A stretch of DNA of 43,034 nt from positions 1-43,034 of the forward strand of contig JAFUEX010000025.1 in NCBI GenBank assembly GCA_017470165.1, given 5' to 3'. Positions 17,796 to 33,143 of the stretch are shown one piece after another (the stretch's first letter is position 1; the number at the start of each line of letters is the position of its first letter). A model generated the notes under the pieces. The model saw nothing but the letters and a program-made list of their open reading frames with translations, made no database searches and was not told where the DNA came from. Source of the stretch: Alphaproteobacteria bacterium (lineage in GTDB: Bacteria; Pseudomonadota; Alphaproteobacteria; RF32; CAG-239). The translations under genes and the position numbers were made by a program.

Positions 17796-19100
17796 TTACA
17801 AATACACATTATCATCAACGCTCAATTCCTCTACTCGATCAGCCAACCCCATCGGGTAAAAGGCTTCAGCAAAAGTCAACGCGAGCGCATCGCCAATATC
17901 AGTTGATCGTCCGATACGCTTTTTAATATCGTCTTTTGCCTCCAACAATAACCGGCTCAAACGGTCATATTTCTTTTCCGGCGCGGTCAAATCGGTTAAT
18001 AATAATTGCTCTTTGTCAATAATCGACACCGGCAATTCACCGTTCAGCCAATTGTTTATTCTTGCCCACATCTCGGCTCTACGATTGCCATAGCGTTCTT
18101 CATCCTGCGCTTTTGAGCCGAAGTTCACTGCGCGGACAATATCGCCATAACCTCTGTCCACCATCAGGTCATAAACACCGGCACCCAATCCACCGACATC
18201 GATATTAATCCGTACCGGTTTGTCATTAAGCACGATAGATGTTAAAATGTTTGCCACATCTACCACCGATTGTTTACGGTAAGTCTTCAAATGATAAGCC
18301 TGCCGCCCGCGGCGATAGCAAATAGCACAAGCATCATCACCAAACCTTGCAGGATCACACCCGACAATCAACGGTTGGGTTGAATTAGCATTATCAATCT
18401 TGGTTTCATAAGCTCTTTTAACCGCTTTGGCCGAAATCAACTTTTTGTCCCCTTGTTGTACCGGCTCACCTTCCCAGATATGCAAATACTCATCCCAATC
18501 TTTGTTCTTTGAGGATAGAGCCTGCAGTTTTAATTCTTCAGGACAAAACGGATTATCATAATAATTAACCTTCACCACCATTGTGCGGTCGTCCGGCTGG
18601 GCCGCCAAAGCCACCCATAAGGGATCGTTTTCCTCTTCACGGTTCATTGAAATCCAAATTTCTGAACCGTCTTTTCGAATAGTCGGCGAAAGAATATCCC
18701 AACTTTTTTTTGTAATCGTCTGCGCTTCCTCGATCCAGGCAATATCAACACCTTCCAGTGATTTGATTTTTTGCGGGTCTTGGTCGCGCAGACCTTTGAA
18801 GATAAACCGTGTCCCGTTCAGACGGTTAACAATCTCACTTTCTTTAATCTCGTATTCTTCCAAGTCATAGGCTGAAATCCTATCTGATAATAATTTATGT
18901 ACCGAATCCTTAATGGTGTCTTGTATCTCGCGCAGGCAAGCAATAAATAACGGCTGTTGCAAGCCCTTCATCAACAAGGCATCAGCAAAAGCATAAGATT
19001 TACCACCACCGCGCCCGCCGTGGAAAAACTTTATTCTTTTCTTTTCCGTCAACAGCGGTAAAAAAGGTCGCGCAACACTAATCTCCACTGTTTTGCCCAT
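17796..19100 (-). CDS. terminase large subunit
   Basis: This 434-residue protein is the packaging ATPase and nuclease. The Walker A-like loop GGRGGGKS is at 28-35, with Walker B (VDIAWIEEA) near 118. The RNase H-like nuclease part carries GCDPARFGDD near 246, INIDVGGLGAG near 292 and DIGDALALTFAEA near 406, which would supply the acidic metal-binding residues. The layout matches the PBSX/phage TerL family. The ATG at 19100 (SD AAGGTGA) is better placed than the TTG directly before it. It overlaps TerS by 23 nt. Confidence 0.92.
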   Translation of the reverse strand: MGKTVEISVARPFLPLLTEKKRIKFFHGGRGGGKSYAFADALLMKGLQQPLFIACLREIQDTIKDSVHKLLSDRISAYDLEEYEIKESEIVNRLNGTRFIFKGLRDQDPQKIKSLEGVDIAWIEEAQTITKKSWDILSPTIRKDGSEIWISMNREEENDPLWVALAAQPDDRTMVVKVNYYDNPFCPEELKLQALSSKNKDWDEYLHIWEGEPVQQGDKKLISAKAVKRAYETKIDNANSTQPLIVGCDPARFGDDACAICYRRGRQAYHLKTYRKQSVVDVANILTSIVLNDKPVRINIDVGGLGAGVYDLMVDRGYGDIVRAVNFGSKAQDEERYGNRRAEMWARINNWLNGELPVSIIDKEQLLLTDLTAPEKKYDRLSRLLLEAKDDIKKRIGRSTDIGDALALTFAEAFYPMGLADRVEELSVDDNVYL

Positions 19101-19539
19101 CAATCACCTTAATGTTAATACCCTCAACCGCATTCAAAGTAACTTCTTTGTTATCTTTCCAATCTCCGGCAAAGGAATTTTTCAAAATAAAATCAGCTTT
19201 GTTACCGGCATTGCCCTCGGCGCATTGACGCACCCAATAAGCCTCCACCGCTTGGCGGAAGTTATCACACAAGTTTTTATATTCCGGCTTTTTGGCATAT
19301 TCATAAAAGGTCGTTTTGGTAATACCGGCAAAGCAACAAAAGTCTTCCAAAGTTACCGGTGCCGGTGAGGCAACAACTTTTACCCCCCCGTTTTTATCAG
19401 GGATTTCTCTTACTCTTCCCTCGGTACTTGCCAAAAACTCAGCCATTTTTCCAAGCATCTCTTTCGGGCTCTTAAAACTTTTCGGTCTACCGCCCAAAAA
19501 TCCGTATTTTGCCAATATTTGTTTATCAAATTTAGCCAT
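19078..19539 (-). CDS. terminase small subunit
   Basis: This 153-residue protein contains a helix-turn-helix segment (VTLEDFCCFAGITKTTFYEY) and the Arg-rich helix NFRQAVEAYWVRQCAEGNAG, then the phrase KADFILKNSFAGDWKDNKEV. That last phrase is typical of small terminases and of DNA-packaging proteins of the gp3 type. It recognises the packaging site and recruits TerL, whose gene overlaps its 3' end. Its upstream DNA holds repeats that could be the pac site. Confidence 0.8.
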   Translation of the reverse strand: MAKFDKQILAKYGFLGGRPKSFKSPKEMLGKMAEFLASTEGRVREIPDKNGGVKVVASPAPVTLEDFCCFAGITKTTFYEYAKKPEYKNLCDNFRQAVEAYWVRQCAEGNAGNKADFILKNSFAGDWKDNKEVTLNAVEGINIKVIDGQNSGD

Positions 19540-22531: not shown

Positions 22532-22873
22532 CTACACCTGTAACGCTGATCTATAAGCTTCCAATAGAACATCCCTGTCATAGCGGTCTTTTATATACAT
22601 CTTACGCAGTTTAAGAACCGCCCGCATAATTTTAACATCAAAACCGCTCCCTTTAGCCTCGCTAAAAACATCGCGAAATCGTTTTGCAATTTTTTTCTTT
22701 TCCTCTTCCAAGGCCTCAATGCGCAGGATAGCCGAGCTTAACCGCTCAACCGCAATACCGCCCAGTTCTTTGTCTTTCTCTTTAACGCACTCCATCACCG
22801 GTTCTGCCGCGTCATCTTTAATATTCAAAACCTTGCCAATCCGGCTATCGCTATAGTTCGTGTTGTTTTCCAT
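22532..22873 (-). CDS. GapR-like DUF2312 nucleoid protein
   Basis: This 113-residue protein contains the DUF2312 core (RIEALEEEKKKIAKRFRDVF, then EAKGSGFDVKIMRAVLKLRK), the alphaproteobacterial GapR family that binds overtwisted AT-rich DNA ahead of forks and polymerases. Family members are common in phages of this class. The N-terminal 35 residues are a divergent acidic extension. It may support phage replication, next to the methyltransferase and replication genes. SD and start ATG 22873 are clear. Confidence 0.8.
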   Translation of the reverse strand: MENNTNYSDSRIGKVLNIKDDAAEPVMECVKEKDKELGGIAVERLSSAILRIEALEEEKKKIAKRFRDVFSEAKGSGFDVKIMRAVLKLRKMYIKDRYDRDVLLEAYRSALQV

Positions 22874-23057: not shown

Positions 23058-23175
23058 TTTTTTGGTGGGCATCCACTCGGCTAAAGCAAATTTATTCTCA
23101 AATTATCCTTTTGCTTACCGCCTGCTTTATTTGCTTATTGTTGAATTTGCTTATTCGGCAGCACCCACCAAAAAA
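23058..23175. repeat. imperfect inverted repeat around the 3' end of the lectin-like gene
   Basis: TTTTTTGGTGGGC...GCAAAT (23,058-23,091) is an imperfect inverted copy of ATTTGCTTATTCGGCAGC...CCACCAAAAAA (23,145-23,175), about 54 bp between arms. The right arm lies in the C-terminal coding end of the lectin-like gene. Confidence 0.5.
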
Positions 23176-23562
23176 GGGATAAAGGGGTAAAAGCTGGAAG
23201 GCTCGGGCGTAACCGTAGTTGTACTTACCGTAGTCGTACCGGCCGCCATCAGACATACCCAGGCCCCAAGAATAGTGGGAGCCGCTCTCGGAAGACGACC
23301 AATACCAACCATTGTTTAGCTTATCTCCGCCGTTTGCTTCTAAAGCCGCGTTGATAGCACCTTTATTCAGATATACCCATGTCAGTGTATCAATATCCGG
23401 CAACTCACCGCCTTGCTTTTCGGCATAGTCCATGGCTTCTTGCCATTCCATTTCTTCAGGAGCATCTGATAAGCTAATCCACACTTCCTTATCGCGGAAA
23501 ATCCCGCAATAAACGCCTTTGTCTTTATCAAATTTACCTATATTCTCATTTGTTATTTTCAT
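23098..23562 (-). CDS. C-type-lectin-fold protein, DGR target-like
   Basis: The start is at ATG 23562 (SD AAAGGAG). The longer upstream frame runs through a tRNA-like sequence and is not used. The 154-residue protein has the DUF1566/FGE-type order: KEVWISLSDAP, ELPDIDTLTWVYLNKGAINA near 53-72, then GWYWSSSE at 85-92. Next comes a segment (residues about 92-119) rich in Gly, Ser, His, Tyr and Asp, ending in ARAF. This Trp-Ser-Ser...Arg pattern is the C-terminal scaffold of most variable proteins of diversity-generating retroelements. In the variable part most codons end in C or T, as AAY codons do after adenine mutagenesis. No reverse transcriptase is in the window. The gene lies away from the tail operon. 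Confidence 0.7.
   Translation of the reverse strand: MKITNENIGKFDKDKGVYCGIFRDKEVWISLSDAPEEMEWQEAMDYAEKQGGELPDIDTLTWVYLNKGAINAALEANGGDKLNNGWYWSSSESGSHYSWGLGMSDGGRYDYGKYNYGYARAFQLLPLYPFFGGCCRISKFNNKQIKQAVSKRII
23197..23300 (-). other. candidate DGR variable region
   Basis: The codons for residues 88-122 are strikingly GC-rich and adenine-poor compared with the rest of the gene and the window. At the surface positions they read TCC, CAC, TAT, GGC, TAC, GAC, all reachable from AAC/AAT by adenine change. The template would be elsewhere. Confidence 0.5.
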
Positions 23563-23728: not shown

Positions 23729-24055
23729 TTATCTCCACAAAAACCAAGCAAACCCAAGCGAACCAAGCCACAAAAAAGCAACCCACATTCGTTCATGCCA
23801 ATCATTCCTTAAATCCGAGTTCCTCAGCTCCATCAGTTTCTTATTCACCTCCATCAGGTTATTATTCTGCTCTTTCAGCTCGTCCAAACACTGTAGCAAA
23901 TTGGCATTCTTCAATGTTTCATCTCGATATTTTTCCTCCATCTGCTTATACGATTCTGATAACGCCTTGTGCGCAGCCTTTAAGATGATCAGTTCATCAT
24001 CTCGGTTTGATTTAACTACATTGGTCTTCATTTGTTTGTTTTGAGTGTTTTTCAT
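23729..24055 (-). CDS. coiled-coil protein with one C-terminal membrane helix
   Basis: This 108-residue protein is charged and helical, with a long coiled coil (KALSESYKQMEEKYRDETLK and onward), and ends in one Trp-rich membrane segment (RMWVAFLWLGSLGFAWFLWR). The start overlaps the Cro-like stop by 4 nt. Layout suggests an early membrane-anchored protein. I do not recognise the family. Its 3' end reaches to within 7 nt of the tRNA-like structure. Confidence 0.6.
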   Translation of the reverse strand: MKNTQNKQMKTNVVKSNRDDELIILKAAHKALSESYKQMEEKYRDETLKNANLLQCLDELKEQNNNLMEVNKKLMELRNSDLRNDWHERMWVAFLWLGSLGFAWFLWR

Positions 24056-24261
24056 TTTTGCTCCTTATATTTTGTTTCATCATACCAATCATTCGACTGC
24101 ACTTCGCCATTACTCCAAGCTGTGATTTTTTTTATTTTGCCAATCCGCGGAATAGTAACACCTCTGCTCCACCGCGATATATTAGCCTGAGATGTTTCCA
24201 ATTCTTTTGCCGCATCCTCTTGCTTTATGTTTTCTTCTTTCAAGTATTTTAAAAAATTCAT
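24052..24261 (-). CDS. Cro-like HTH regulator
   Basis: This 69-residue protein contains a helix-turn-helix: YLKEENIKQEDAAKELETSQ followed by NISRWSRGVTIPRIGKIKKI. It faces the CI-like gene across the operator region and is the first gene of the minus-strand early transcript, the standard Cro position. SD AAAGGAG upstream of ATG 24261. The promoter with operator 1 lies directly upstream. Confidence 0.8.
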   Translation of the reverse strand: MNFLKYLKEENIKQEDAAKELETSQANISRWSRGVTIPRIGKIKKITAWSNGEVQSNDWYDETKYKEQK

Positions 24262-31629: not shown

Positions 31630-31957
31630 TTATGTGCTTTTAAACACTAAACAGGCAAAAGCCGCGCTTAATGTTTCATATTATCGCTTTCAAAAGATTG
31701 TAGCCTCCGGTTTGCCGTTTAAGATGATTAACGGAACAAAGCTGTTTCCGAAATGGGGAATTGATCAATGGCTAAAAAACACTCAGACCCTTACCGACTG
31801 TATCAACGCGGCGAAATCTGGCACGTTTACCTCACCTATCAAGGAACACAGCTTAGACGCTCTACTGGAACAACAAGCCGAAGAGAAGCTGAAGAGTTCG
31901 CGCTACAAAAAATTGCCGAAATTAAGAGGCAGGCCGAAATTAGACATGGTGGTTTAA
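31622..31957 (+). CDS. excisionase-like HTH protein
   Basis: The 111-residue protein has an N-terminal HTH_17-type segment (YVLLNTKQAKAALNVSYYRF, then KWGIDQWLKN) as in AlpA/Xis-type phage excisionases. The last 63 residues (after about residue 48) overlap the integrase gene in another frame. They are therefore of low reliability as a functional part, and the real role is probably the HTH part alone. Directly upstream of int, it probably controls excision. Confidence 0.5.
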   Translation: MNDYVLLNTKQAKAALNVSYYRFQKIVASGLPFKMINGTKLFPKWGIDQWLKNTQTLTDCINAAKSGTFTSPIKEHSLDALLEQQAEEKLKSSRYKKLPKLRGRPKLDMVV

Positions 31958-32904
31958 TCGATGTTACCGTCAACGAAACCTTTGGGCGTTATTATAACGA
32001 AAAAGCTGTATATCAAACGCGCTCGACACAAACATTAAACCGCCTGTCGCGCCTCAAAGAATGGCTCAATGTAATCTATCTTCATGAAATCAACGAGCCT
32101 GTTGTCTCTCAAATGGTGGCAAATATCCGCCAAAAAATGAAAAACGCCACCGTCAACCGCTACCTTGCCTTATTATCCGTTATCCTAAATACTGCCGCCG
32201 ATGAATGGCACTATAATTGTCAGCATATCAAAATATCCAAATTCAAACTCAAAGAACCGGCAGAGAATATCAAATTTCTACCCGACTGGCCAACCGCGCA
32301 AAAGATTATCGACCGTGCGCCAGCGCATTTCAAGCCGATTATCCAAACGGCGCTTTATACCGGCATGAGATTAGGCAACATTATCGGTTTAAAATGGCAA
32401 CAAATTGATTTTACAAACAATTTTATTTTAATCAAAGTAAAATGCAAAAACACCGATGGCGGCAAAAACCACCATATACCCCTCCTGCCCCAGCTCAAAC
32501 AAATCTTGCTTGAGCTTCCCAAAACAAGCGATTACGTCTTTTTATCATCCAAAGGCGCACCAATAAAATTTATTCAAACAACTTGGATTGATATCTTTTA
32601 TCGCTGGCAGTTGGCCAAAGACCCCAAAGAACTAACTCCGCAAGACGTCATCTTGCACAAAACTTACACAAACAAATATGGCGAAACCAAAATCTCGATT
32701 TATAAGCGTGTATTAAAAGACCCGGAGCTTCCTTATGTTAATTTTCACACCCTGCGCCACACAACTGCAACATGGTTAGCACGTGCTGGTGTCAATGCCA
32801 AAACGATTAAAGAAATCTTAGGTCATCAGGATATTCGCACTACAAACAAATATATGCACGCCGCCGATTCCGATAAGCGCGCCGCCCTCGCCTCCATCTT
32901 TTAA
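31768..32904 (+). CDS. int: tyrosine integrase
   Basis: This 378-residue protein has an N-terminal arm-binding type segment (YRLYQRGEIWHVYLTYQGT), a SAM-like core-binding domain and a catalytic domain. The visible catalytic residues are Arg in ALYTGMRLGNIIGLKW, the His-x-x-Arg of FHTLRHTTATWLARAG, the GHQ of ILGHQDIRTTNKYMH and the Tyr of that last motif. It performs site-specific integration and excision. Its 3' end is 152 nt from tRNA-Ser, whose 3' end is the likely attB/attP core. Start ATG 31768 is inside the Xis-like gene. Confidence 0.9.
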   Translation: MAKKHSDPYRLYQRGEIWHVYLTYQGTQLRRSTGTTSRREAEEFALQKIAEIKRQAEIRHGGLIDVTVNETFGRYYNEKAVYQTRSTQTLNRLSRLKEWLNVIYLHEINEPVVSQMVANIRQKMKNATVNRYLALLSVILNTAADEWHYNCQHIKISKFKLKEPAENIKFLPDWPTAQKIIDRAPAHFKPIIQTALYTGMRLGNIIGLKWQQIDFTNNFILIKVKCKNTDGGKNHHIPLLPQLKQILLELPKTSDYVFLSSKGAPIKFIQTTWIDIFYRWQLAKDPKELTPQDVILHKTYTNKYGETKISIYKRVLKDPELPYVNFHTLRHTTATWLARAGVNAKTIKEILGHQDIRTTNKYMHAADSDKRAALASIF

Positions 32905-33056: not shown

Positions 33057-33090
33057 TGGCGGAGCGTAGAGGATTCGAACCTCTGCATCG
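33057..33090. other. probable attachment site (3' end of tRNA-Ser)
   Basis: The T-arm and acceptor 3' half of tRNA-Ser abut the prophage end next to int. Tyrosine integrases often use such sites. The other copy would lie outside the window, so this is inference. Confidence 0.4.
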
Positions 33091-33143
33091 GTATCCCGAT
33101 GACAGATTAGCAATCTGCTGCATTACCACTCTGCCAACGCTCC
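33057..33143 (-). tRNA. tRNA-Ser(GCT)
   Basis: Type II cloverleaf with GGAGCGT/ACGCTCC acceptor, anticodon loop TTGCTAA (anticodon GCT), a long variable arm (ATCGGGATACCGAT) and T-loop TTCGAAT, ending GCCA-CCA-type 3' end encoded. All arms pair. It reads the AGC/AGT serine codons. Confidence 0.95.

Follow-up and report, generated by a model that had tools for sequence, protein, structure and literature searches.

A chromosomal diversity-generating retroelement as the probable source of variation in a prophage gene of an alphaproteobacterium

The window, the whole stretch of 43,034 nucleotides analysed here (contig JAFUEX010000025.1, referred to as C16, of the alphaproteobacterial assembly GCA_017470165.1), carries a prophage with a lectin-like gene at 23098-23562, which is very probably diversified in trans by a diversity-generating retroelement (DGR) located on another contig, C17. 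This chromosomal DGR comprises a reverse transcriptase (RT), Avd, and a template (TR), and the prophage gene is its one known target.

Template and variable repeat

A DNA search of the genome with the target gene gives, besides the gene itself, one strong match, C17:22867-22976, situated just after an RT. The features of the window are as follows.

1-33056: prophage carrying the target, its left end cut by the contig end, with terminase, head-tail adaptor, tail, methylase, and integrase genes
22532-22873, minus strand: GapR-like gene downstream of the target (GapR_DNA-bd, 83.8 bits)
23058-23175: perfect 12-nt inverted repeat, arms 23058-23069 and 23164-23175, with 94 nt between them
23098-23562, minus strand: DGR target gene, a lectin-like (Lcl_C-like) prophage cargo gene for 154 aa
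23191-23300, minus strand: variable repeat (VR), codons 89-124 of the target, whose template is C17:22867-22976 of the same genome
23191-23206, minus strand: VR 3' end, candidate initiation-of-homing site, 16 nt identical to the template (CCGAGCCTTCCAGCTT)
31768-32904, plus strand: phage integrase adjoining a tRNA gene (phrog_1 integrase, E 7.4e-58)
33057-33143, minus strand: tRNA-Ser(GCT), the right edge of the prophage

TR and VR align without gaps over 110 nt and differ at 21 positions, of which 20 are template adenines (14 A>G, 4 A>T, and 2 A>C changes) and one is a T>C change. Given 38 adenines in 110 nt, this bias has a p value of 1.3e-10, which bears out the initial annotation of the gene as a DGR-type variable one. 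That annotation had proposed looking through the genome for a template of about 100 nt matching except at adenines, and such a template is indeed present, beside an RT and an avd gene; the match reaches from 23191 to 23300, not from 23,197 as had been guessed. The altered adenines fall on the first (12), second (7), and third (1) codon positions. Codons differ between the two repeats in 14 cases out of 36, in 13 of them through adenines, and the rewritten codons, 12 AAY and one AAA, now stand for S, G, H, Y, or D. All of this pairing evidence comes from one genome of the species, each species being represented by a single genome in the collections.

The pairing is specific at the remaining positions as well. 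At the 72 non-adenine template positions the VR has a single mismatch, while the next best place on either strand of the window has 39. An adenine-tolerant pattern of 82 nt, with up to three mismatches allowed, finds two places on the genome's contigs, the TR (0 mismatches) and the VR (1), and its reversed control none. Moreover, six template-like stretches of related genomes, used as a control, differ from the C17 TR mostly outside its adenines, with 2 of 18, 4 of 24, 4 of 28, and 5 of 30 differences at adenines, and 6 of 26 and 5 of 25 in the shorter stretches, gap columns being counted among the differences. It is quite improbable that the phage brought in a gene already diversified by a DGR in a different host, the C17 TR being a mere relative of the true template. 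A temperate phage could move between hosts, and related templates do occur in other species of the genus; against this, the C17 TR has one non-adenine mismatch to the VR, while the three nearest foreign TRs have 16, 20, and 24 non-adenine differences from the C17 TR over 121 nt, so that the true donor would need to be nearly identical to the C17 TR.

The last 16 nt of the VR, identical to the template, are a candidate initiation-of-homing site, and the sole non-adenine difference is the 17th base from the VR end. No compact hairpin or cruciform of the BPP-1 type was found just downstream of the VR, but only the 12-nt inverted repeat, beginning 15 nt past the VR, with its arms 94 nt apart. The RNA fold of the stretch after the VR is no better than that of shuffled sequences (z -1.16), and Rfam gives only sub-threshold matches around the VR and the TR. 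No further target of the C17 TR is found in the genome sequence, the remaining matches having E values of 0.1 or worse, though a VR with many non-adenine changes would escape these searches. A weak protein match on contig C18 (Cys-rich, Lcl_C-like) was rejected as a second target, its match to the TR being at the null level.

Target gene and prophage

The target gene probably starts with the ATG at 23562, preceded by AAAGGAG, a good ribosome-binding site, which gives a protein of 154 aa; the mechanical ORF extends beyond it to 23805. Both the ORF and the GWYWSSSE...ARAF scaffold described initially are confirmed, the scaffold being followed by a 32-residue tail. The VR lies within a lectin-like domain of the C-type-lectin kind, whose Lcl_C (PF07603) score of 19.3 bits is below the Pfam cut-off of 34.9. 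The gene could be an ordinary Lcl_C-type phage gene whose scaffold only resembles that of a DGR target, and a distant homologue (27% identity), the sole one among the 35 terminase-found loci, indeed has no obvious VR and lies at a different place in its contig (L143); this alternative has virtually no probability left, as the adenine-specific template match rules it out. Among 50,697 phage records no target homologue is matched by tblastn, even at E 10, and a search of viral contigs, able to find close relatives only, reveals none.

As noted initially, the gene lies in the early region and not among tail genes, being one of the early minus-strand genes. On its 5' side lie an ORF whose product is hydrophobic at its C-terminal end (23729-24055) and a small one that by eye is helix-turn-helix-like (24052-24261), and on its 3' side the GapR-like gene and a DNA methylase gene. 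The suggestion that the product is secreted or exposed on the cell surface finds no support, a simple hydropathy scan showing no hydrophobic N-terminal stretch. The segment 23590-23690, 5' of the target, resembles by eye the 3' part of a tRNA (GGTTCAATTCCTGCACAGCGC); a tRNA is called there neither by ARAGORN nor by Rfam.

The right edge of the prophage is well defined, DNA homology to the sister genomes G010 and G027 ending exactly at 33057 and that to G009 and G017 within 9 nt of it. To the right of tRNA-Ser lies the host flank with ZIP, mutL, and pgi genes; a second copy of the tRNA-Ser end, of 14 nt, is found nowhere else in the window. The closest phage contig, L142, has a terminase 83% identical to that of the prophage (62% in L143), a homologue of the GapR-like gene (62% identity), and homologues of three more genes between the GapR-like gene and the terminase, but none of the methylase. 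It has no target gene beside the GapR-like gene, which is preceded by ca. 120 nt up to the next ORF, comparable with 23729-24055 only by its place and by eye; the target therefore looks like inserted cargo. As for the terminase itself (17796-19103), 102 of the family's 153 genomes contain relatives at E 1e-40, mostly one copy per genome with ca. 51-66% identity, and contig C19 of the window's genome bears a second one. Such a distribution would fit either a widespread phage lineage or an element resembling a gene-transfer agent.

DGR locus on C17

The genome (1.45 Mb in 26 contigs) is 88.86% complete, with a stated contamination of 0.47. An RVT_1 search finds three matches, on contigs C15, C17, and C19, so the window has no RT, in agreement with the initial annotation. 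The phage-encoded cis layout of BPP-1 is not seen here, since neither an RT nor a template lies in the window; the left end of the prophage is absent from the contig. Further targets, or an RT in the missing prophage end, are possible in view of the incompleteness and fragmentation of the assembly.

The C17 RT, encoded by an ORF of 439 codons beside the TR, scores 67.6 bits against RVT_1 (cut-off 29.6), and its closest solved chain is 8ub7 (E 1.3e-27), which we take to be the BPP-1 RT. The Avd protein scores 54.6 bits against PF22296 bAvd (cut-off 40) and 47.2 bits, under the cut-off of 80, against NCBIfam DivGenRetAVD, and has no match among solved structures. Both frames are open and cover the Pfam models over almost their full length. 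A DGR-type RT is thus located next to the TR, and an adenine-biased TR-VR pair in cis is present in 38 of 62 homologous loci.

The machinery sits among housekeeping genes of the host chromosome. One flank comprises genes for a PD-(D/E)XK nuclease, AddB-like by its context, Ham1, a starch/glycogen synthase, GrpE, a Mur ligase, and a TetR-like protein (23.7 bits, cut-off 24), and the other a glycosyltransferase, TerC, and tRNA-Lys. Of the two initial suggestions, diversification in trans or from the unseen part of the prophage, the former thus stands, and the machinery is chromosomal. In the sister genomes G009, G010, and G011 the order from GrpE to the gene preceding the RT is kept (55-76% identity), while 20 kb from each of them contains no match to the RT, Avd, a 247-aa ORF, the glycosyltransferase, or TerC; only a tRNA-Lys region has a counterpart, farther along and in the opposite orientation, in G010 and G011. 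The sharp left junction and the variable right side indicate a changeable locus, the DGR having been gained in this genome or lost in the sisters. An RT of the C17 type is found at E 1e-20 in 6 of 36 genomes of the genus, this one included, and not in the sisters G009, G010, G011, and G028. Among the named RT homologues, the first ten listed (52-63% identity) belong to Alphaproteobacteria bacterium, uncultured proteobacterium, or Azospirillum sp. CAG:239, and those listed lower to Bacteroidetes, Legionellaceae, Treponema, and others.

According to the contig coordinates, the VR and the TR would be separated by at least 42.6 kb even if C16 and C17 were adjacent. In an assembly of 26 contigs of uncertain origin, C17 could come from another organism through a binning error, which is very improbable: the flank genes of the two contigs share their nearest sister genomes (G009, G010, and G011 rank first among the 36 genomes of the genus for MutL of C16, and G010, G028, G011, and G009 for the AddB-like protein of C17, the G028 MutL match being partial), the stated contamination is low, and the TR-VR match itself ties C16 to C17.

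Template orientation and leader

The C17 TR is located downstream of avd, on the strand opposite to the RT and avd genes, so the stretch after the TR would be antisense to avd. In contrast, the TR is on the RT strand in all 38 of the 62 named RT loci that have an adenine-biased TR-VR pair in cis (at least 60 nt, at least 7 adenine mismatches, and few others), and it lies upstream of the RT match in 36 of them and downstream in two; some of the 62 loci are near copies or truncated, and the 24 without a pair are uninformative.

Within the ca. 100 nt upstream of the TR, in the TR sense, there is a leader consisting of GAGC, a T-run, ATTAAAAAAGGG, and a hairpin, common to the C17 DGR, G005, G007, G015, G017, L029, and L030. 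Changes on both sides occur in 7 of the 16 pairs of the hairpin among seven sequences (2.4 on average in shuffles, 1 of 500 reaching this count), with 10 changed cells (2.5 in shuffles, 0 of 500 as high) and a covariation score of 0.411 (0.235 in shuffles, 0 of 500), while the number of pair types is less telling (13, with 10.9 in shuffles, 47 of 500); the alignment tested was also the source of the structure, which favours it. The pairing is destroyed by sliding the partners, and the window's genome supplies some of the compensatory changes. Folded on its own, this genome's TR unit does no better than shuffles (z -1.15), and a promoter scan of the TR region gives 3 sites, with 2.9 expected. 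We read the template unit, from its sequence, as probably a selected RNA despite the inverted orientation.

The conserved hairpin region upstream of the TR is found at C17:22867-23078 (L002:2909-3120) and also in L133, L135, L136, L137, L029, and L030, and by eye similar GAGC-T-run-AAAAAAGGG leaders are present in L032, L033, and L034 and, less exactly, in L038. Possibly, the hairpin is a general leader of TR RNAs in the clade of C17-type DGRs.

The inverted orientation, met in none of the 38 loci with a cis pair, also bears on whether the system is alive. The C17 DGR could have written the VR in the past and be dead today, its template unit having meanwhile been turned round with respect to RT-Avd, which would suit the one non-adenine TR-VR mismatch and the sisters without a match to the RT at E 1e-20; moreover, G015, with an orphan TR and no RVT_1 match, shows that such decay happens in the genus. 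We regard this as unlikely, with a minor, real chance of being true, as the RT and Avd frames are open and near full-length to the Pfam models, the leader hairpin keeps its pairing through compensatory changes, and 71 of the 72 non-adenine positions of TR and VR still agree.

Other DGRs in the genome and its relatives

The window's genome contains a second DGR, in cis, at L001:1252-3521 on C15, where the RT lies beside an Mtd-like target and all 14 mismatches are at template adenines. It was rejected as the source of the prophage VR, since its TR pairs with its own neighbour and the VR is fitted by nothing in the genome other than the C17 TR. The third RT, at L003:592-2328 on C19, resembles the antiviral Drt2 (355 bits, cut-off 390).

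In relatives, the DGR family to which the C17 system belongs serves bacterial genes, a flagellin gene in G017 and a gene for a Cys-rich protein in G007. In the latter, 20 of 21 mismatches are at adenines, and the neighbours look chromosomal by eye. The RT and the VR of G007 lie on different contigs, the avd end and the VR each no more than ca. 1 kb from the end of a contig; the two may thus be adjacent, and counting G007 as a second case of action in trans is unsafe. We know of no second natural case of a chromosomal DGR with a prophage target.

The flagellin gene of G017 (L137:4520-6880, on the same contig as L031) has its TR-VR pair beside RT-Avd in cis, with 13 mismatches at adenines and 2 elsewhere. 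In L137 (G017), L140:6927-8570 and L115 (both G014), and L121 (G018), the encoded flagellins contain a variable region of the Lcl_C type in the middle of the protein; those of G017 and G014 match the NCBIfam flagellin models below the cut-off. When the three copies from G014 and G018 are compared, the flanking protein is alike and the variable stretch differs, and no RT was found in G014. We read this as a DGR-diversified flagellin; in excerpts of PMC6642488, flagellin merely appears among the listed target annotations.

At two loci, L138 (G033) and L139 (G012), a single RT is preceded by a tandem series of two or three template-like stretches, of which two match overlapping halves of the same variable region. 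The orphan template of G015 (L136:8149-8269) retains its leader and is followed by sequence in which a likeness to the beginning of the RT gene can still be recognised. Large expansions of Lcl_C-like genes are found in five genomes of genus g7 (G068, G069, G071, G072, and G073), with 11 to 28 matches in one genome, at most 28 candidates having been scored.

Proposed explanation

The TR RNA would start, probably, at or before the conserved leader hairpin, and would be reverse transcribed by RT-Avd with errors at adenines; the cDNA would then replace the VR of the prophage gene, from the site at its 3' end as in BPP-1, the outcome being the rewriting of 13 codons of the C-type-lectin-like domain. 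We infer from the BPP-1 analogy that homing would proceed in this manner and that the C17 DGR may act on its target at present. The product would be a soluble binder made from the early operon, and its ligand most likely a variable molecule of the host or of a rival phage, met inside the cell or at lysis. A broader reading, tentative and held with slightly less belief than doubt, is that a prophage gene with a VR only parasitises, or is domesticated by, the chromosomal DGR of its host, that it codes for an apparently cytosolic binder, and that the TR RNA is an autonomous unit with a structured leader, working inverted.

If host DGRs serve prophage genes, phages would gain hypervariable proteins without carrying an RT, and phage genes with a VR only would be invisible to searches of RT neighbourhoods. 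It may then be asked who benefits, the phage, spared the cost of an RT, or the host, for which a phage gene would serve as an additional scaffold.

Comparison with known systems

The target protein is related to the C-terminal domain of Legionella Lcl (PF07603, 8q4e) only distantly, at 24% identity and below the Pfam cut-off, and is 154 aa in total. Legionella Lcl carries a collagen-like part, which the target protein lacks.

The C17 DGR shares with that of BPP-1 (brt, avd, TR, and mtd) the RT, Avd, the TR, and an adenine-specific VR in a C-type-lectin fold. They differ in that BPP-1 uses its own cassette in cis on a tail-fibre gene, whereas here the cassette is chromosomal, the target lies outside the tail region, and the TR is inverted relative to the RT. 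A topology in trans of the C17 type can work, judging from excerpts of PMC3240598, in which an engineered BPP-1 prophage lacking avd, TR, and brt was diversified by a plasmid supplying them.

Remote DGR targets are described in excerpts on Treponema denticola (PMC4891356), cyanobacteria (PMC7517822), and Thiohalocapsa (PMC10907252), where, similarly to the C17 system, the VRs lie far from the RT and match the TR except mainly at adenines. These excerpts name no prophage target, whereas the only target found for the C17 DGR is a prophage gene and none lies in cis. The large metagenome survey of DGRs in PMC8144416 sought the repeat within 1 kb of the RT and, as stated in the excerpt, would miss remote targets. 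Searches of the open-licence PMC literature brought up no chromosomal DGR with a natural prophage target. Remote targets as such are therefore already published, and the new aspect would be, as far as sequence and these searches indicate, the natural prophage target of a chromosomal DGR.
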